Shown in pieces: positions 1 to 58,553 of a stretch of 58,553 nt of DNA (positions are counted from its first letter, which is position 1; the number at the start of each line of letters is the position of its first letter). The notes beneath the pieces are model-generated. The model was not told where the DNA came from, did no database searches, and saw only the letters and a program-made list of their open reading frames with translations. Location of the stretch: positions 1 to 58,553 of IMG/VR virus record IMGVR_UViG_3300025000_000115. One strand, written 5' to 3'. This stretch comes from a virus. The translations under genes and the position numbers were made by a program.

Positions 1-161
1 AAGCACCAACAGCAGACCGATTACCAGTGATTTCATTTTAGACCTCGTTTATGATTAAAATTATTGTAACGACTGTGAGCATGATTACTCCAATAACGGT
101 AGACGTCATCTCAGACCTCCACGTAGGCTATTGTTCCGCAGGTTTTAATTCTAGCGACCTC
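1..161. repeat. Terminal direct repeat, first copy (circular closure)
   Basis: The first 161 bases are found again at 58393-58553 in the same orientation. The only difference I see is T at 50 versus C at 58442. This is what a circular or terminally redundant genome assembled as one contig looks like. The gene at 58027-58428 reads across this join into the genes at 38-109 and 111-1343, so the late operon is continuous over the ends. A true short terminal repeat cannot be excluded without read-coverage data. Confidence 0.95.
38..109 (-). CDS. 23-residue membrane microprotein
   Basis: This reading frame is too short for usual gene callers. It starts with ATG at 109, with GGAGGT seven bases upstream inside the end of the glycosyltransferase-methyltransferase gene, and stops with TAA at 40-38. 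Almost the whole peptide is one hydrophobic helix (VIGVIMLTVVTIILIM) with a short polar end, so it should insert in the inner membrane. Its stop is one base from the ATG of the exported 133 aa protein in circular coordinates, so the two are probably coupled. The terminal-repeat mismatch at position 50 changes one residue (Ile here, Met in the 58430-58501 copy). The function is unknown. Confidence 0.55.
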   Translation of the reverse strand: MTSTVIGVIMLTVVTIILIINEV

Positions 162-29594: not shown

Positions 29595-29774
29595 ATGAAA
29601 GAAGGACTGAGAAAAATCAGCGACAAATTAGCAACGGCAACAGTAGAGGCAGAGAAGTTTGAAGGCGGCAACAAATCTGCCGGTGTCAGACTCAGGGGTC
29701 TGATGCAGGATATCAAAACGCTGGCAACCGAAGTGCGAGGAGTCGTACTGGCTGCTACTAAAGGGGGTAAGTAA
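29595..29774 (+). CDS. Histone H1-like (Hc1-type) protein
   Basis: This is a 59 aa protein with AGGAGG eight bases before its ATG, missed by longer-ORF searches. The core EAEKFEGGNKSAGVRLRG then LMQDIKTLATEVR follows the pattern of bacterial histone H1-like Hc1 proteins (GNKAAxxRxR...KLxKxAKxxR), which bind DNA and resemble eukaryotic linker histones. The N-terminus is a short basic helix (KEGLRKISDKLATATV). It would bind phage or host DNA and perhaps organise it. The likeness is judged by eye. Confidence 0.65.
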   Translation: MKEGLRKISDKLATATVEAEKFEGGNKSAGVRLRGLMQDIKTLATEVRGVVLAATKGGK

Positions 29775-29777
29775 CCG

Positions 29778-30833
29778 ATGAGCATCACACTGACAATACC
29801 TGATGACAAGCGGCACATCACTGCTGCTGCTAAATTTTTCGCAGACTTGGCTGACATCGGGCTAATTATCCCGACGTTTGATGGTCAATTTGTAATTACA
29901 CCTGCCGACGTGGAAAAATGTAGCACAATTGCTGGCAAAACAGCAGACGTTATGATTTTTGATGACGTTGAGCACACAGCATCGCCCGTTGACGTTAGTT
30001 CGGCATTCATGGCAACCACAGTGGTCGCGCAGCATCCAACAACCGAATCTCTGCTTACCGGCAACGGAATACCAGAATACGACGGTGTGCCTTTTGACGT
30101 GACGCCACCCACACCAGTACCACCTGCGCCACCCACACCAGTACCACCTGCGCCACCCACACCAGTACCACCTGCGCCACCCGTAACACCACAACCGTTT
30201 GTACCACCCGAACCAACTCGTAATGTCCCTGGTCCCATCGTCAGCGGTGTCAAACTGGATGCAGAAGGCCTGCCGTGGGATCGACGTATTCACGCAAGCA
30301 CCAAGACCCTCCGTCAGTCAGATAACACCTGGAAGCTGATACGCGGTGTGCAGGAAGGATTGGTTGCTAAGGTTAAAGACGAGTTACGAACCGCTATGGG
30401 TCAGGCGGCTCCGGTCGGATCTAACGGCGGTGTAATGGTGCCGACAGAACAATTTAACGCCGGTACGATTCCGCAACATGTAGTCAACCAGATAATCACA
30501 CCGCCAGCACCGCCCACCGGTTTGCCGAATCTCGACAATGACAGTAGTTGGCCTGCACCTCCATCAGTCGTTGAGGACGCCGCACTCGTCACCCCACCGC
30601 CACCAGTGCTTGCTCTCGTCCAGCCACCCGCACCACCTGCTCCACCTGCTGCCGATCCGTTTCCTGAGTTCGTACAATTCTGCACCAGCAATCAGCAATC
30701 TGGCAGACTGGAGTACACAGCCATCGTAAGCACTTGCCAGAAATACGGCATTACTCAACTTCCAATGCTCAACGCTCGTCACGACCTGATACCGACCATT
30801 CGTACTGAGTTGGAGGCTTTATGCAAGTCATAA
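29778..30833 (+). CDS. Proline-rich protein of unknown function
   Basis: This 351 aa protein has an N-terminal folded part (SITLTIPDDKRHITAAAKFF), then proline-rich linkers with three TPVPPAPP repeats near residue 110. A central motif DAEGLPWDRRIHASTKTLRQ, in two turns, also occurs in other phage proteins with no known function, and the C-terminal 60 residues are helical. It is the first large protein of the rightward block and probably works with the DNA-metabolism genes downstream. Confidence 0.7.
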   Translation: MSITLTIPDDKRHITAAAKFFADLADIGLIIPTFDGQFVITPADVEKCSTIAGKTADVMIFDDVEHTASPVDVSSAFMATTVVAQHPTTESLLTGNGIPEYDGVPFDVTPPTPVPPAPPTPVPPAPPTPVPPAPPVTPQPFVPPEPTRNVPGPIVSGVKLDAEGLPWDRRIHASTKTLRQSDNTWKLIRGVQEGLVAKVKDELRTAMGQAAPVGSNGGVMVPTEQFNAGTIPQHVVNQIITPPAPPTGLPNLDNDSSWPAPPSVVEDAALVTPPPPVLALVQPPAPPAPPAADPFPEFVQFCTSNQQSGRLEYTAIVSTCQKYGITQLPMLNARHDLIPTIRTELEALCKS

Positions 30834-31204
30834 TGGGTAACATAACGACACAATTAGACGTTCACCGATCAAAAAGTATTATCATTACCGGGGGGAAGGG
30901 GACTGGTAAAACCATACTCGCTACACAGCTGGCTAAGTTTATCGGCGGACCATATATATTTGTCAGCGAACAGGATGTTAAAAAAGATAAATTTATTTTT
31001 GCGAGTAAACCGAGCACTGTTATTATTGAGGATTGCAAGAATTTAGACGTTCTTTACGGGCTGACCTGTAGTGAGACTGTGATGTGTCATCGTAAGGGTA
31101 AAGAACCAAAAGAAATGATCACGCCACATATTATATGCACGAGTGAGCTCCGTACAATGAACAGCAGTCCTCGGTTTATTGTTATTGATTTGGGGGGTTA
31201 TTAA
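30821..31204 (+). CDS. P-loop ATPase-like small protein
   Basis: This 127 aa protein has a clear Walker A (IIITGGKGTGKTILATQ, GxxGxGKT) at about residues 21-37, a strand ending in an acidic pair (TVIIEDCKNL, Walker B-like) and further strands (HIICTSELR; FIVIDLG). It is too short for a full helicase and looks like a compact ATPase or kinase-fold protein. It overlaps the preceding gene by 13 bases and ends at the start of the DUF2800 gene. Confidence 0.75.
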   Translation: MQVIMGNITTQLDVHRSKSIIITGGKGTGKTILATQLAKFIGGPYIFVSEQDVKKDKFIFASKPSTVIIEDCKNLDVLYGLTCSETVMCHRKGKEPKEMITPHIICTSELRTMNSSPRFIVIDLGGY

Positions 31205-32385
31205 TGACTTCACCAGCACCTGTGACGGACAGACCGATATCACCTCCAGCGCCCGCACCAGCACACGCTCGGCTCAGTCCATCAGCCGCGTCACGGTGGG
31301 TCAAGTGTCCCGGTAGTGTTCCGCTTGCTGCCAGATTTCCTGAAACCGGTTGTTCTGACGCGGCTGAAGAGGGAACAGCAAGCCATTGGATCGGCAGCGA
31401 GACTCTGAGCGGTCGCGGCAAGGCTGTCGGTGCCTGGGTGGGTGTCAAAGCGCCGAACGGCATTGTGATTGACATGGAAATGGTTGACGGTGCGTATGTT
31501 TATGTCGAAGCCGTCAAACAGGCAGCAGGCGTACAGCAGGTGTTGACGGTCGAGCAACCTGTGACCTGCATGCCGGTTCATCCTGAATGTTGGGGAACAC
31601 CCGACCTGTTCTACTGGTCAGCAGGCGGTAAAGAGCTACATGTTTGGGATTATAAATACGGTTACGGAATAGTCGAGCCGTATGAAAACTGGCAGTTGAT
31701 TTGCTATGCTGCCGGAATAATGACCGGTCTTACCGGCGATCAGGACCGGCAAACGACTGTCTGTCTGCACATTGTCCAGCCGCGACCGTTCCACCGTGAT
31801 GGTGCTGTCAGGGAATGGCGAATAAACGGGGCCGACCTGCGTGGTTACATCAATCGTCTGTCGCTTGCTGCTCACCAGGCAGTCTCAGCAACACCTTGCA
31901 CGGCGTCCGGTGCTCATTGCCGGTACTGTGCTGCACGTCACGCCTGTCCGACACTTGCTCTGTCGTGTTACGCTGCAATCGATTATATTGGTCAGGCGCA
32001 ACCGGAAGAGTTGACAGTCGAAGCAATGGCAATGGAATACAAGGTGCTGGAGCGTATCAGTGTGCTGATTAAATCCCGATTGTCGGCTCACGAGTCGCGT
32101 ATGATCGGCATGATTAAAGCGGGTGGCTCGGTGCCTGGTTACACAATCGATTACGGAACCGGCCACGCTAAGTGGACTAAACCGGTAGCTGAAATAATCG
32201 CTCTCGGCAAGATGATGGGTCTGGAACTTGCCGCCGAACCACAGGCGGTCACACCTGCAAAGGCGATTAAAGCAGGATTGGACGAAGTATTGGTCAAGGC
32301 GTACAGTGAGCGACCGCAAACAGGCATGAAATTGCTGGCTGTCGGTAACTCGCTGGCTAACAGAGTATTTGGGGTGAGCGTATGA
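31204..32385 (+). CDS. DUF2800 Cas4/RecB-like nuclease
   Basis: This 393 aa protein starts RLSPSAASRWVKCPGS with the first Cys. It has the catalytic motifs CWGTPDLF and HVWDYKYGYG (D and D-x-K of the PD-(D/E)XK fold). Near residue 236 a CTASGAHCRYCAARHACP cluster, with three further Cys, could hold an iron-sulfur cluster as in Cas4/AddB. It is the standard partner of DUF2815 in phage replication modules. The overlap with the preceding stop is one base. Confidence 0.93.
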   Translation: MTSPAPVTDRPISPPAPAPAHARLSPSAASRWVKCPGSVPLAARFPETGCSDAAEEGTASHWIGSETLSGRGKAVGAWVGVKAPNGIVIDMEMVDGAYVYVEAVKQAAGVQQVLTVEQPVTCMPVHPECWGTPDLFYWSAGGKELHVWDYKYGYGIVEPYENWQLICYAAGIMTGLTGDQDRQTTVCLHIVQPRPFHRDGAVREWRINGADLRGYINRLSLAAHQAVSATPCTASGAHCRYCAARHACPTLALSCYAAIDYIGQAQPEELTVEAMAMEYKVLERISVLIKSRLSAHESRMIGMIKAGGSVPGYTIDYGTGHAKWTKPVAEIIALGKMMGLELAAEPQAVTPAKAIKAGLDEVLVKAYSERPQTGMKLLAVGNSLANRVFGVSV

Positions 32386-32618
32386 GAGCAACAAGCACCA
32401 CCACTGTGATTTTGGAGATGTCAGAAAATGAAGCGGCATGGTTAATAGGTCAGTTGGAACAGGCGGCAATTGATTCGCCACCAAGCGTGCTACATCATGA
32501 TTTAGCTGAACAGCTCAAATATGTACTACCTAATTCAGCCAAATCATCTGTTGCACCAGCCTGTGCACCTGCAAGCCGCATTAACCGGTCAACCCGGTCA
32601 GGAGGAACACAATTATGA
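32382..32618 (+). CDS. Hypothetical 78 aa protein
   Basis: The protein has a helical segment (MSENEAAWLIGQLEQAAIDS) and a Ser/Pro/Ala-rich end. The start overlaps the stop of the DUF2800 gene and its stop overlaps the start of the ssDNA-binding protein. No family is recognised. Confidence 0.6.
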   Translation: MRATSTTTVILEMSENEAAWLIGQLEQAAIDSPPSVLHHDLAEQLKYVLPNSAKSSVAPACAPASRINRSTRSGGTQL

Positions 32619-33463
32619 TGCACGGAACAGACCATGTAATAACCGGTAATGCTATTGTCGTATGGGACGGCATTACCAAACCGGAAACCATGAAGAACGG
32701 TCAGCCGCTGGCTAAGCCTCAGTACAGCTTGAAACTGGCACTTCGAGCGAACGACCCTTGTCTTGCCGAAATTGACGCAATAGCTAAATCAGCACTTCAG
32801 GCGTCCAAGTGGAAAGGTGTCATGCCTCATGGCGGTTCCTGGCCCCTTGCAAACGCTAACCCGCAGATTGCCGATGGTGCGCTTAACGGTATGATAACCA
32901 TTAACCCGAAAACCAGTCAGCAGGACATTACGCAGAAAGTCTATGATGCAAACGGTCAGCCGCTTAACCCGATGGCGTATGCGAGGATGCTTTACCCTGG
33001 AGCCGTGGTCCAGGTAATTATTCACGCGTTTGACTTCGATAACGTGCAGAAGGGTATTTCACTCGGTCTGGACGGTATCAGGATCGTTGACGCCGCAGCA
33101 CCTGCTCTGAATATTGGCGCGTCAATGCCTGCCAGTGAGGTTGCATCGGCGTTCGGCGCTGCTCCGGTAGCCGCACCTCAACCACCGGTATTCACGCCGC
33201 CTGTCGGTCAGCCCCCAGTGTACCAGCAGCCACCTGTCGGGTATTCAGCACCGCAGCCACCGGTATTCACGCCGCCGGTGTACCAGCAGCCCACTGCTCC
33301 TGCACCTCCGATGCCGCCGATTACGCCTGCACCTGACTTCTTGGCACCCCCAATACCACCTGCTCACCAGATGACCGCTGCTGCAAATGGTGCGAGCTAC
33401 GAACAGCTTGTGGCTATTGGCTGGACTGACGCGACACTCAGACAGCACGGCATGATGATTTAA
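32615..33463 (+). CDS. DUF2815 ssDNA-binding protein
   Basis: This 282 aa protein has the family's start (ITGNAIVVWDGITKPETMKNG, in two turns) and body with OB-fold strands (GAVVQVIIHAFDFDNV; KGISLGLDGIRIVD). A Pro/Gln-rich linker with PPVFTPP repeats follows, and a short C-terminal motif LVAIGWTDATLRQHGMMI ends it. DUF2815 proteins are T7 gp2.5-like ssDNA-binding proteins. The long linker separates the core from the interaction tip. Confidence 0.9.
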   Translation: MMHGTDHVITGNAIVVWDGITKPETMKNGQPLAKPQYSLKLALRANDPCLAEIDAIAKSALQASKWKGVMPHGGSWPLANANPQIADGALNGMITINPKTSQQDITQKVYDANGQPLNPMAYARMLYPGAVVQVIIHAFDFDNVQKGISLGLDGIRIVDAAAPALNIGASMPASEVASAFGAAPVAAPQPPVFTPPVGQPPVYQQPPVGYSAPQPPVFTPPVYQQPTAPAPPMPPITPAPDFLAPPIPPAHQMTAAANGASYEQLVAIGWTDATLRQHGMMI

Positions 33464-34054: not shown

Positions 34055-34685
34055 ACCGTCTATCAAATTGGAGTTCGTTACTCCCGATGCTCTGCGACTT
34101 ATAGAGACTGCTGGTCGCACCTGTTACAAGTCAGAAGATAAAATAACATCTGGTTCTGCCATTGATTTTGTGCAGATGATTCTAAAACGCGGTCACGATT
34201 CGGTATTGGAACACTGTAACGCAACCGTTCGATTCATTTGTGATCGTGGCGTGTCACATGAGATTGTGCGCCACCGAATAGCCAGTTTTAGTCAGGAGAG
34301 CACGAGGTATTGCGACTATGAAAGTGGGCATGTTGCTTTTATAATTCCGCCCTGGGTAACAATACCTGCTGGCATATATGTCCCTGGGGAATGCCCATCC
34401 AGTAACAACGAAGATTACGAATGGTTTAATGCTATGTGGGACGCTCGTTGTCGTTACAAGACTCTCCGCGAACACGGCTGGAAACCAGAACAGGCACGCA
34501 GTGTGTTGCCGAACAGCCTCAAAACTGAAATTGTGATGACGGGAAATTTCCGCGAGTGGCGGCACTTTTTTAGACTGCGTTCGTCGGCAATATCATTGGC
34601 AGCACATCCACAAATGCGCGAGGTTGCTGATTTGGCACTTGCCGAAATGCGTCAACAAGTGCGTGTTGTCTTTAGTGACCTATGA
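34041..34685 (+). CDS. thyX: Flavin-dependent thymidylate synthase ThyX
   Basis: This 214 aa enzyme makes dTMP from dUMP using methylene-tetrahydrofolate and FAD. The ThyX signature RHRIASFSQESTRY is at 77-90, HDSVLEHCNATVRF supplies the FAD/dUMP-binding histidine region, and the C-terminal SLAAHPQMREVADL matches the family. The flavin signature is complete. It overlaps the preceding gene by 14 bases and directly precedes the polymerase, feeding dTTP to phage replication. Confidence 0.96.
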   Translation: MQLIKPSIKLEFVTPDALRLIETAGRTCYKSEDKITSGSAIDFVQMILKRGHDSVLEHCNATVRFICDRGVSHEIVRHRIASFSQESTRYCDYESGHVAFIIPPWVTIPAGIYVPGECPSSNNEDYEWFNAMWDARCRYKTLREHGWKPEQARSVLPNSLKTEIVMTGNFREWRHFFRLRSSAISLAAHPQMREVADLALAEMRQQVRVVFSDL

Positions 34686-36703
34686 CAACACCTGCCGACT
34701 ACATATACGACATCGAGTCTTACTGTAACATCTTCACGCTCGCCATCAAACAGGCGGGTGCCGACCACCGCTGGCTATTTGAGATAAGCGACCGGCGCAA
34801 CGACGTACAGGCTCTCTGCGCGTTTATGCAGACGCTCCGCACCTGGAACAGCAGGATGGTCGGATTCAATAACCTTGGATTTGACTATCCTGTACTCCAC
34901 TCGATCCTGATGCGACCTGACCAGGCGACTGCTTACTCCATCAACCAGACCGTACAGTACATAATCAATAAACCTCACGAAGATCGGTTTGGTCATATCA
35001 TTTACGACCGCGACCAGATCGTGCCGCAACTCGACCTGTTTAAGATTCACCATTTCGACAATAAATCAAAATATACCAGTCTGAAGATACTTGAATTTAA
35101 TATGCGGTCTGATAGCATCCAGGATTTACCGTATAAACCCGGCAGCACACTGACCAGCGAACAAATGGAATTGCTGATCCAGTACAACTGGCACGATGTC
35201 GAACAGACTGAAGCGTTCTACTGGTACAGCATCGACGCCATACGGTTCAGAGAGGAACTGTCGGCTAAATACGGTCGGTCTTTCATTAACCACAACGACA
35301 CGAAGATCGGCAAAGATTATTTTATCATGCGTCTGGAAGAGGCGTCACCGGGGGCGTGTTATGACAGCTCCAGCGGCTCCCGGCGTCCACGCCAGACTAT
35401 CAGGCAGCAGATACGGCTTGCTGACGTGGTGCTGCCTTACGTGCAGTTTCAGCGACCGGAGTTCACCGCTGTAGCAAACTGGTTTAAAGCACAGGTGATC
35501 GGCGGCAAACAGGTCGAAGAACTGGACAAAGAAGCGACAGACGACCTGAAGATTAAGGGTATTTTCACAAAGATATCTGAAAATGAATTGGGAGAACTGG
35601 CACAATATTCACAATTTGAAAAGCACAAGGTCGGTGGTAGTAGGCGGGTTAAAACACTTAATTGTGTTGTTGACGGATTTCAATTTAACTTCGGTGCCGG
35701 TGGGCTGCACGGCAGTGTGACCAGTCAGACGGTCAGCAGTGATGACACACATATAATCTTGGATTTGGATGTTGCAAGCTACTACCCGAATATTGCCATA
35801 GCAAACGACTTCTATCCTCAACATTATAGTCAGTTATTTTGCCGTATTTACAAAGACGTGTACGAACAGCGGAAAACTTACAAGAAGGGCACACCGGAAA
35901 ACGCCATGCTGAAGCTGGCATTGAATGGTGTTTATGGCGACTCGAATAACAAATATTCAGTCTTCCTCGACACGCAGTACACCATGCTCATAACGATTAA
36001 CGGCCAATTGTTACTCTGCATGTTGGCCGAACAGTTAATGCGTGTACCCGGTCTGCAAATGATTCAAGCCAACACTGACGGTCTGACGGTACGCGTCCCA
36101 CGTTCTGCTCACGAACACGTTGGCACTGTCTGCAAGTGGTGGGAAGGATTCACTCGATTACAGCTGGAAGAAGTTGTTTACGAGCATGTCCATATCAGGG
36201 ACTGTAATGGTTATCTCGGTAGATATGCCGACGGCAAGATCAAACGCAAGGGACCGTACCGCAGCGTGTTTAATCCACCGGCAATTAATATCAGTGTCGG
36301 CGATCTTGAATGGCACCAGGACCACTCGGCGCTGGTTGTACCAATGGCCGTTGAGTCGGCACTGATTCACGGTGAGCCGGTGCGGTCGTTCATCTACAAC
36401 CACGACAATATTCACGACTTCATGCTGAGAACCAAAGTACCACGTAGCAGTCGGTTGGAACTGGACGGTCGAATCGTGCAGAACATAACTCGCTATTACG
36501 TATCTCGGTCGGGTGACCCGTTAGTTAAAATAATGCCACCCTTGGCTAAGAAGCCTGGAGTCGAACGCCGAATAGGTATTTGCGTGGGGCGGAACGTCAG
36601 CGAGTGCAACGACATCCAGCAAGCAGTCGGAACGGATATTGACTTCGAGTATTACATCAGTGAGGCGGAAAAGCTGTTAAAACCATTACAGGGAGGGGTT
36701 TAG
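34682..36703 (+). CDS. Family B DNA polymerase
   Basis: This 673 aa protein has the exonuclease-I motif IYDIES (residues 8-13), polymerase motif A DLDVASYYPNI (about 358-370, DxxSxYP), motif B LKLALNGVYGDSNN (about 409-420) and motif C with NTDGL in place of DTDSL (about 462-470). The altered motif C still has one of the two aspartates. It replicates the phage DNA with the prim-pol and helicases of the leftward block. It overlaps the ThyX stop by four bases. Small size and motif C suggest a divergent phage group. Confidence 0.94.
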   Translation: MTTPADYIYDIESYCNIFTLAIKQAGADHRWLFEISDRRNDVQALCAFMQTLRTWNSRMVGFNNLGFDYPVLHSILMRPDQATAYSINQTVQYIINKPHEDRFGHIIYDRDQIVPQLDLFKIHHFDNKSKYTSLKILEFNMRSDSIQDLPYKPGSTLTSEQMELLIQYNWHDVEQTEAFYWYSIDAIRFREELSAKYGRSFINHNDTKIGKDYFIMRLEEASPGACYDSSSGSRRPRQTIRQQIRLADVVLPYVQFQRPEFTAVANWFKAQVIGGKQVEELDKEATDDLKIKGIFTKISENELGELAQYSQFEKHKVGGSRRVKTLNCVVDGFQFNFGAGGLHGSVTSQTVSSDDTHIILDLDVASYYPNIAIANDFYPQHYSQLFCRIYKDVYEQRKTYKKGTPENAMLKLALNGVYGDSNNKYSVFLDTQYTMLITINGQLLLCMLAEQLMRVPGLQMIQANTDGLTVRVPRSAHEHVGTVCKWWEGFTRLQLEEVVYEHVHIRDCNGYLGRYADGKIKRKGPYRSVFNPPAINISVGDLEWHQDHSALVVPMAVESALIHGEPVRSFIYNHDNIHDFMLRTKVPRSSRLELDGRIVQNITRYYVSRSGDPLVKIMPPLAKKPGVERRIGICVGRNVSECNDIQQAVGTDIDFEYYISEAEKLLKPLQGGV

Positions 36704-52806: not shown

Positions 52807-53268
52807 TCACAACTCCTTGTGCCACTGTAACCCGGTTGCTGTGTAACCCTGTTTTTCCAGCAGACGACCTGTTGCCCCGGCTTTTAATCGTGTTCCCATT
52901 GCCGAAAGAATTGCCCCCTTTTCTCTCAGGTGTTTATCCGCAAGTGCTACCAGTTCCGACATTATCTTTATCCGGCGAAATGGACTCAGCTCAGGGTCCG
53001 TATGGAGAATTATCTCCTGTGCGACCGCAATTTTACGCTGATAAAATGTGGTTCGCAATATAATTGCGTAAATCACTCCAATTATTTTACCATGCGCCTG
53101 TGTGACTATCAGTACACTGTCTGGTCCGTTACAGGCAGCAAGCATGTCGGCGGCATGTTCTTCCTCGAATATGCCCACCAGTGGGCCGAATGCTATTTCA
53201 TCGTAATACGCCCGACTGACGGCAGCTATCCGTGGTATGTCTGTCTCGCGGGCGAGTCTGGTTATCAT
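52807..53268 (-). CDS. GNAT acetyltransferase
   Basis: This 153 aa protein has the GNAT fold order: ITRLARETDIPRIAAVSRAY at the start, IIGVIYAIILRTTFYQRKIAVAQEIIL strands in two turns, EIILHTDPELSP (motif A), and KQGYTATGLQW at the end. Such phage GNATs near ejection genes acetylate unknown targets. It overlaps the radical SAM gene by four bases, so the two are coupled. Confidence 0.85.
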   Translation of the reverse strand: MITRLARETDIPRIAAVSRAYYDEIAFGPLVGIFEEEHAADMLAACNGPDSVLIVTQAHGKIIGVIYAIILRTTFYQRKIAVAQEIILHTDPELSPFRRIKIMSELVALADKHLREKGAILSAMGTRLKAGATGRLLEKQGYTATGLQWHKEL

Positions 53269-54200
53269 ATCGACTCATTAACTATCATCGCTTTCACGAA
53301 ATCCATTATGCGCCCATCCTTCGTCGTGTAGGTCGGTGGCATGTCTACGTCGTTCAAGTCAATATTGTCGATGTTATACCACTTGATTATTGCATATCGT
53401 ACACCGTTAAACGTCAGACGGTAATACGATATCTTGCCTGACGGTGCAAGTACCAGCTCACCTGGATGATTGCCGAACCACTTGATGACATCCGATACGA
53501 AGATGTCGGCGTTATTGCGCTCGTTCCACACTTTAGATGCTATTTTGATTCGCACCACACTGAACAACTCGTGATAATCTTCAGCAAGGGTGACGACAGC
53601 AGGCAGTTCTTCAAGACTGTCAATCACGAAGAAAATAGTGTCGAACTTGACGCGGTGTGACACTATATTAGCGATTACTGCCGGAAACCAGCGAGCTTCC
53701 TTATGATACGACAAACCGATCTGTACGACGCCGGTATGGTCGGTAAGGCGGTTAAGATACTCTCTGAATCCTAACCCGCTGTCTTCCAGACCGTAACCGT
53801 TGGTCAGCATGTACGCAGGGCCGATCTGCTGCACTCGATCAATTATCGCGAATATTTCAGGATGCAGCGTCGGCTCGCCGCCGGTCAGGATATACGGTCC
53901 AGGTGCCTGACGGCAATTTTCCAGTATGGTTTCCACCGGTATGTCTGACTGACCTCTCTCATAAAAGCAGTATTTGCAGTTAATGTTGCATCGGGTCGTC
54001 ACATCGACCAGGTGTCCAGCGTAAATCTGGTCAGGGTTTTGTTCACAGTGCTGGAAAAACGACGAGTCGGACTCCAGCAGACCGACAGTCATGCCGTGGT
54101 CAGGACAACTCTTTGCAATTATCGCCTGCCCTCCATCGCTACAAACGACCGCCTGAACCTCCTTGTAACAGGTGTTACATAGACTTCTGGTCACTCTCAT
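53265..54200 (-). CDS. Radical SAM enzyme with N-terminal Cys cluster
   Basis: This 311 aa protein has the radical SAM cluster Cys71-x3-Cys75-x2-Cys78 (TRCNINCKYCFYERG), the SAM-binding GGE at ILTGGEPTLHPE, and NGYG and IGLSYHKEAR strands. The N-terminus SLCNTCYKEVQAVVC, SCPDHGMTVG recalls the Cys-rich start (SLCPxC...CPxHG) of MJ0619-type radical SAM proteins, which include lipid-modifying enzymes. The substrate is unknown. It lies between the neck protein and the acetyltransferase in the late operon. Confidence 0.9.
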   Translation of the reverse strand: MRVTRSLCNTCYKEVQAVVCSDGGQAIIAKSCPDHGMTVGLLESDSSFFQHCEQNPDQIYAGHLVDVTTRCNINCKYCFYERGQSDIPVETILENCRQAPGPYILTGGEPTLHPEIFAIIDRVQQIGPAYMLTNGYGLEDSGLGFREYLNRLTDHTGVVQIGLSYHKEARWFPAVIANIVSHRVKFDTIFFVIDSLEELPAVVTLAEDYHELFSVVRIKIASKVWNERNNADIFVSDVIKWFGNHPGELVLAPSGKISYYRLTFNGVRYAIIKWYNIDNIDLNDVDMPPTYTTKDGRIMDFVKAMIVNESI

Positions 54201-57874: not shown

Positions 57875-58003
57875 CTACATCCAGTTAGGTAATTTGCCGT
57901 CACCTTTGGGTTGCTTGGCGACGGCTTTCTTGATGGCAGGCTTCTTGGTTTTCTTCTTGACTTTAGGTTTTACCACCTTACCGGCTGTCAGTATGTTTTT
58001 CAT
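57875..58003 (-). CDS. Lysine-rich 42 aa protein
   Basis: ATG at 58003 has GAGG upstream. About a third of the residues are Lys (KVVKPKVKKKTKKPAIKKAV), with no acidic residue except one Asp. It probably binds DNA or RNA, or neutralises DNA inside the virion. It is too short for the usual cut-off but its codons and site are consistent. Confidence 0.6.
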   Translation of the reverse strand: MKNILTAGKVVKPKVKKKTKKPAIKKAVAKQPKGDGKLPNWM

Positions 58004-58026: not shown

Positions 58027-58428
58027 TTACATCCCTTGAACGTAGTTGGCACCAGCACCAAAAACAACAGTCACCGATAGGACATTGGGTTGCGCCACGA
58101 AAATATCACAGAATAGAGTGGCAGGACAGATGAATGTTTTAGTGGTGTCCGAGTTGTAATAATACGTGGTATCTGCGACAGAATATAGGTGAATATTATA
58201 CCAACCGGCAATATTCACCTGACCAGTTGCACCGGCAACAGGAAAATAAAAAACCACCGTGCCGGTCATTGCTGATGTAACCTGGCTCTTTGCCGGGTCA
58301 GGCACAGTGCCCTGCACCATACTTATACCACCACCATTCGTGCCAGCAGAAGTCTGACCGCCTGGCAGACAGAACGCTTGTGAACATAACGTAAGCACCA
58401 ACAGCAGACCGATTACCAGTGATTTCAT
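58027..58428 (-). CDS. Secreted small protein
   Basis: This 133 aa protein has an N-terminal Sec signal peptide (MKSLVIGLLLVLTLCSQAFC), a Gly/Thr/Ser-rich linker and a beta-rich domain (GTVVFYFPVAGATGQVNIAG; YYNSDTTKTFICPATLFCD). It contains one likely disulfide pair in the C-terminal part. It sits before the neck genes in the late operon. Its 3' neighbour across the circular join is the 42 aa lysine-rich gene. Confidence 0.7.
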   Translation of the reverse strand: MKSLVIGLLLVLTLCSQAFCLPGGQTSAGTNGGGISMVQGTVPDPAKSQVTSAMTGTVVFYFPVAGATGQVNIAGWYNIHLYSVADTTYYYNSDTTKTFICPATLFCDIFVAQPNVLSVTVVFGAGANYVQGM

Positions 58429-58553
58429 TTTAGACCTCGTTCATGATTAAAATTATTGTAACGACTGTGAGCATGATTACTCCAATAACGGTAGACGTCA
58501 TCTCAGACCTCCACGTAGGCTATTGTTCCGCAGGTTTTAATTCTAGCGACCTC
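58393..58553. repeat. Terminal direct repeat, second copy
   Basis: These 161 bases repeat positions 1-161 with the C/T difference at 58442/50. The 5' part of the gene at 58027-58428 and the start of the gene at 111-1343 are both inside, so there is no gene of its own. Confidence 0.95.
58430..58501 (-). CDS. 23-residue membrane microprotein (second copy from terminal repeat)
   Basis: This is the same frame as 38-109, repeated because of the terminal overlap, with Met in place of Ile at residue 20 from the C at 58442. Count it once in the genome. Confidence 0.5.
   Translation of the reverse strand: MTSTVIGVIMLTVVTIILIMNEV

Follow-up and report, generated by a model that had tools for sequence, protein, structure and literature searches.

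The window, the whole stretch of 58,553 nucleotides of viral DNA analysed here, carries an open reading frame (ORF) whose 59 aa translation is MKEGLRKISDKLATATVEAEKFEGGNKSAGVRLRGLMQDIKTLATEVRGVVLAATKGGK. The ORF lies near the head of a replication/recombination operon and outside the virion gene block. The plus-strand block between 28.8 and 37.5 kb runs in the order Imm5-like SAAx-repeat protein, tRNA-like element, Hc1-family gene, proline-rich protein, P-loop protein, DUF2800 nuclease, Gp2.5-like single-strand DNA-binding protein (SSB), ThyX and DNA polymerase. Pfam and PHROG matches confirmed the DNA-metabolism neighbours that an earlier note on this DNA had named, and the tRNA-like element that it had placed beside the gene was likewise found. 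The following features are used below.

28804..29469, plus strand: Imm5-like protein containing a tract of SAAx repeats, upstream of the Hc1-family gene (Pfam PF21805, 30.7 bits)
29466..29560, plus strand: tRNA-like element between the SAAx-repeat gene and the Hc1-family gene (Rfam RF00005, 41.3 bits)
29583..29588, plus strand: Shine-Dalgarno-like AGGAGG of the Hc1-family gene, a strong ribosome-binding site as read from the sequence
29595-29774, plus strand: stand-alone Hc1-family (PF07432) protein, 59 aa, ORF from ATG to TAA with a Pfam match
29667..29696, plus strand: GNKSAGVRLR signature, codons 25-34, at the predicted hairpin turn and start of helix 2 (alignment of 31 members)
29778..30833, plus strand: proline-rich protein, 351 aa, phrog_11133, next in the operon and conserved beside the Hc1-family gene in the related locus L121
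30821..31204, plus strand: P-loop (AAA-like) protein, 127 aa, Pfam AAA at the cut-off
31204..32385, plus strand: DUF2800 / PD-(D/E)XK nuclease, operon member (Pfam)
32615..33463, plus strand: Gp2.5-like single-strand DNA-binding/annealing protein (phrog_112, E = 1.5e-17)
34682..36703, plus strand: phage DNA polymerase (phrog_1252, E = 1.8e-187)
57875-58003, minus strand: lysine-rich mini-protein, 42 aa, MKNILTAGKVVKPKVKKKTKKPAIKKAVAKQPKGDGKLPNWM, in the virion gene block

The same 161 bases stand as a direct repeat at both ends of the window (1-161 and 58393-58553, one mismatch), so the genome is probably complete, at about 58.4 kb, and circularly permuted; the record is classed as linear, perhaps on account of the single mismatch. 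The genome encodes a P22-type portal (phrog_156), whose top database matches are portals of P22-like podoviruses, a major head protein (phrog_283), a DNA-ejection protein (phrog_598) and a head-closure match (phrog_578). These markers support a short-tailed, P22-like phage, as the earlier note had supposed. The same phage recurs in other samples, since two contigs (L175 and L176) carry the major head protein of the window at 100% identity together with the same 42 aa mini-protein. Two minus-strand ORFs among the virion genes (53265-54200 and 52807-53268) encode a radical SAM protein that bears an HMPTM zinc ribbon and a possibly acetyltransferase-like product, the latter judged from its first residues.

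The 59 aa ORF is a real gene under purifying selection. Six bases separate the end of AGGAGG from its ATG, the same ribosome-binding site is kept 5' of the homologue in L121, and the gap between the stop codon and the start of the next gene is 3 nt. The protein matched the Pfam family PF07432 (Hc1) with E = 3.6e-14 and 52.8 bits over model positions 2-56 of 57, the gathering cut-off being 23.5 bits; the Hc1 profile match on which the original proposal depended is thus present. PHROGs and NCBIfam profiles gave no match to the protein. Its nearest relative, on the IMG/VR contig G001 (loci L001/L121), is 76% identical and lies in a syntenic position, with a helicase gene on the opposite strand on one side and the proline-rich, DUF2800, SSB and polymerase genes on the other. 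The two homologues differ at 47 bases, 29 of them at third codon positions, with dN of 0.16, dS of 1.40 and dN/dS of about 0.12. A spurious ORF, to which the short length and the missing PHROG and NCBIfam matches might point, is practically out of the question given the Pfam E-value, the dN/dS and third-position changes, and the conserved place and ribosome-binding site. Truncation of the ORF by a missed frame or start was ruled out as well, the phage and bacterial relatives being equally long. The leader GCCRGTCAACCCGGC 5' of the ribosome-binding site did not occur above chance within the window at three mismatches.

The acceptor, D and T arms of the tRNA-like element are well formed, but the loop of its anticodon arm has four bases and its variable region holds an additional stem of some eight pairs; ARAGORN at default settings made no tRNA call on 29466-29560. 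No such element was detected in L121/G001, the relative that has retained the Hc1-family gene, and the idea that element and gene form one unit was rejected on this ground. Simple repeats lie 5' of the gene in both phages, as 12-base units coding SAAx in the window (28804-29469; x mostly Q, E, W or R) and as six-base GGTCGN-type repeats in L121 (5710-5940).

An AlphaFold model based on 31 aligned relatives predicts a two-helix hairpin with helices at residues 2-23 and 27-56, no strand and a mean pLDDT of 94.5. The globular domain of the eukaryotic linker histone H1 is a winged helix. This fold is absent from the model, and the long lysine/alanine/proline-rich tail of the H1 type is absent from the protein. 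The description as linker-histone-like is therefore not borne out: what is found is a core domain only, predicted to be a hairpin. The GNKxAxxRxR pattern that had been read from the sequence is present as GNKSAGVRLR, and in an alignment of 31 phage and bacterial members, which takes in the window protein itself, residues K21, G25, N26, K27, A29, R32, R34 and R48 are invariant (31/31). The term K-rich applies in so far as the protein is mildly basic, with 8 Lys and 4 Arg among 59 residues, a net charge of about +5 by residue count (+4.5 at pH 7) and a pI of about 10; the lysine-rich tail is absent.

The PF07432 model has a length of 57 positions, the core only, and presumably represents the N-terminal half of chlamydial Hc1. 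For Chlamydia trachomatis Hc1 (HctA), dimerisation is reported for the conserved N-terminal half and DNA binding for the lysine-rich C-terminal half, which is free of acidic residues (PMC2848022); the window protein has the core in common by profile but ends 11 residues past R48 and lacks the DNA-binding half. We read out 80 bacterial loci and 60 viral ones, the latter from 58 distinct contigs, and a lysine-rich tail beyond the core was found in none of them. Nearly all complete readings were 53-69 aa long, and the few longer or shorter ones differ at the N-terminal end, where the choice of start is uncertain. Since the tail is absent, bacterial members are near neutral and the winged helix is missing, a PF07432 profile match by itself does not imply DNA binding. 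Calling the 59 aa protein a histone is not justified, because only the helical pairing domain is kept. Hence, of the Hc1-type histone that had been proposed, membership of the Pfam family stands and the DNA-binding lysine-rich half is missing.

The mean net charge was +2.5 for 35 viral sequences and +0.8, near neutral, for 70 bacterial ones, and the window protein, with +5, is among the most basic members read. Helix 2 carries a basic stripe with seven-residue spacing, Lys or Arg standing at positions 27, 34, 41 and 48 in 100, 100, 65 and 100% of the aligned members, respectively. Its hydrophobic face lies about 140 degrees from this stripe, and acidic residues occupy positions 39, 46 and 53 in most members. 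Judged from the sequences, this charge pattern could be a nucleic-acid surface or a charge pairing (salt bridges) of a helical dimer, and the amphipathic helix would be compatible with dimerisation. Fold comparison with solved and viral structures gave generic helical hairpins only, many of them hairpin-shaped ribosomal proteins, and no E-value under 0.001; the matches to solved structures all had E above 0.4, typical of any two-helix hairpin. A sequence search of solved structures with the 59 aa protein returned nothing significant.

Phage genes of the Hc1 family are already known. The direct matches among annotated phages were the Synechococcus cyanophage S-SRM01, where the product is called 'histone H1', two single-cell marine viruses and three very large uncultured phages. 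The S-SRM01 protein, whose gene has no annotated baseplate neighbour, and the proteins of T4-like marine contigs are phage-encoded and tailless, as in the window. Jumbo moraphages, which are very large phages, were reported in 2025 with a protein of the same Pfam family (PMC12619734). In addition, a structure match led to Pseudomonas phages ZC03/ZC08 (Schitoviridae), short-tailed like the phage of the window, whose 60 aa protein (ZC08_014, phrog_31787) scores 33.2 bits with PF07432, above the cut-off. Its gene lies at the end of an operon for primase, Sak4 annealing protein, SSB and RusA and thus also in a replication context, but the protein lacks the GNK motif, and direct sequence comparison with the window protein showed no similarity within the limits of the search. 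With these cyanophage, moraphage and podovirus members on record, the claim that such a gene is unusual was overstated.

A single-sequence scan of genome contigs found no relative, and an alignment-based scan did. In the pattern-based scan of a bacterial/archaeal genome collection, where the pattern limits what can be seen, members came mostly from Planctomycetota (Phycisphaerae), with some from Bacteroidota (Algoriphagus), one from Chloroflexota and one labelled Actinomycetes; in the phylum of one planctomycete, 10 of 99 genomes had a match. The stand-alone proteins of Planctomycetota and Bacteroidota resemble the window protein in length, invariant residues and lack of a tail, whereas the latter has a higher net charge (+5; the bacterial mean is +0.8) and sits on a long branch. 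In about 45 of the 80 bacterial loci (Phycisphaerae / Planctomycetota, L041-L120) the gene is followed by one of a FabA-like family, an identity taken from Pfam in three tested cases. Among phages, the search for a PF07432 gene found none in G111, a contig of 57 kb with a major head protein 59% identical to that of the window, and none in four contigs encoding DUF2800 proteins of 34-40% identity; contigs may be fragments, and most of the other records searched for the gene were short. As it was not found in the near-size relative, the gene looks accessory.

The Hc1-family gene stands directly before a gp25-like baseplate wedge gene in 42 of the 58 distinct viral contigs; gp6 comes next after gp25 in 40 contigs and a gp5-like hub gene lies upstream in 34, these family assignments being confirmed on examples. 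T4-like marine phages with the gene before gp25 include contigs L137, L140, L141, L156, L158, L034 and others. In the tree, the baseplate-linked proteins form one clade (support 100/98). The window lineage lies apart from it, on a long branch grouped with the sequences of bacterial type; the tree was built on 59 columns, which resolve few forks and give no firm count of acquisitions. What is new here is the genomic context, namely replication genes in podoviruses, such as that of the window, versus the baseplate operon in T4-like contigs. No discussion of the baseplate location was found in the accessible part of the literature.

We tentatively favour the explanation that the gene encodes a dimeric basic hairpin helping to organise replicating or recombining phage DNA-protein complexes. 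The stand-alone PF07432 alpha-helical hairpin would probably dimerise and present the conserved basic stripe of the second helix (K27, R34, K41, R48) away from the hydrophobic face. Made together with the replication and recombination proteins, it would act as a small helper protein on phage DNA undergoing replication or recombination, where weak contacts made by the basic stripe along the dimer could hold DNA or DNA-protein complexes together; dimerisation, nucleic-acid contact and the role in replication are steps that we infer. Lacking the lysine-rich DNA-binding tail, it is not a linker histone of the genome-compacting kind. We place most weight on this explanation because two groups of short-tailed phages have the gene together with SSB and annealing/nuclease genes, and because few of the members read are as basic as the copy in the window. 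The full-model Pfam match, the purifying selection, the synteny in G001 with helicase, nuclease, SSB and polymerase, and the dimerisation reported for the N-terminal half of chlamydial Hc1 (PMC2848022) argue for it as well. A DNA-binding test of a tailless PF07432 member was not found in the literature. Most phage loci have the gene in a baseplate operon, the acidic residues at 39, 46 and 53 match the basic stripe, and solved structures give generic hairpins only, all of which count against a DNA-organising hairpin. Moreover, DNA binding driven by charge cannot be a general property of the family, because the tailless proteins of bacteria have almost no net charge.

A close rival, which we find plausible but favour less, is a pure protein-protein adaptor. 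The hairpin would then pair with a phage or host protein and make no DNA contact, and its operon position would be incidental. The part of chlamydial Hc1 retained in the window protein is reported to be the dimerisation half and the part missing the one that binds DNA (PMC2848022). The place before gp25 in most viral contigs would suit an assembly factor or a small structural part, and the FabA-like neighbour in Planctomycetota, the near-neutral charge of the bacterial members and the complementary acidic and basic positions of helix 2 point the same way. Set against this, both the window protein and the homologue in G001 are unusually basic, their genes stand with replication genes, as in ZC03/ZC08, and the baseplate-linked proteins form a clade separate from the window lineage.

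A histone-like compactor that coats and condenses DNA in the way of chlamydial Hc1 in E. coli, either the phage's for packaging or the host's for shut-off, is improbable. The family name, the net positive charge and the pI of about 10 speak for it, and such a role was suggested for the jumbo moraphage homologues (PMC12619734), but lysine-rich tail and winged helix are both absent and the gene lies with replication genes, outside the virion block. That block encodes a different and far more tail-like protein, the 42 aa lysine-rich mini-protein, which is kept in relatives: G001 and L177 have similar lysine-rich counterparts at the same place, beside the homologue of g82, and L180/G111 and other contigs have basic mini-proteins close to their head genes. 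The mini-protein is the most histone-tail-like protein of the phage, ahead of the Hc1 ORF, and the better candidate for a packaged DNA-binding or DNA-condensing protein. We also considered a 'split Hc1', with the core at 29595-29774 and the mini-protein as its separated tail. This idea is weakened by the near-size relative G111, which has a similar basic mini-protein and in which no PF07432 gene was found; in that case, therefore, mini-protein and core are not coupled. Less probable still is an RNA-binding hairpin acting on phage or host RNA, as the structural matches to ribosomal proteins that suggest it are of the kind given by any two-helix hairpin (E above 0.4) and the tRNA-like element directly upstream was not detected in the gene-keeping relative.

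A broader reading is one that we regard as possible but on balance unlikely: the stand-alone PF07432 hairpin would be no histone but a reusable pairing module, recruited more than once by phages, into podovirus replication operons and into the T4-like marine baseplate operon, perhaps as an unrecognised baseplate or assembly part, and the chlamydial lysine tail would be a later addition. PF07432 proteins carry the label 'histone H1' in genome and phage annotation, and annotations of a 'phage histone' may often mislead, since the label rests on a domain that, in the single case studied, is the dimerisation half and not the half that binds DNA. The fixed place before gp25 in marine T4-like phages makes membership of the baseplate concretely testable, and with the podovirus copies, which are small and easy to express, one can ask whether the tailless domain binds DNA. 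If the pairing-module reading is true, it would be the lysine tail that turned the module into a DNA compactor in chlamydial Hc1.
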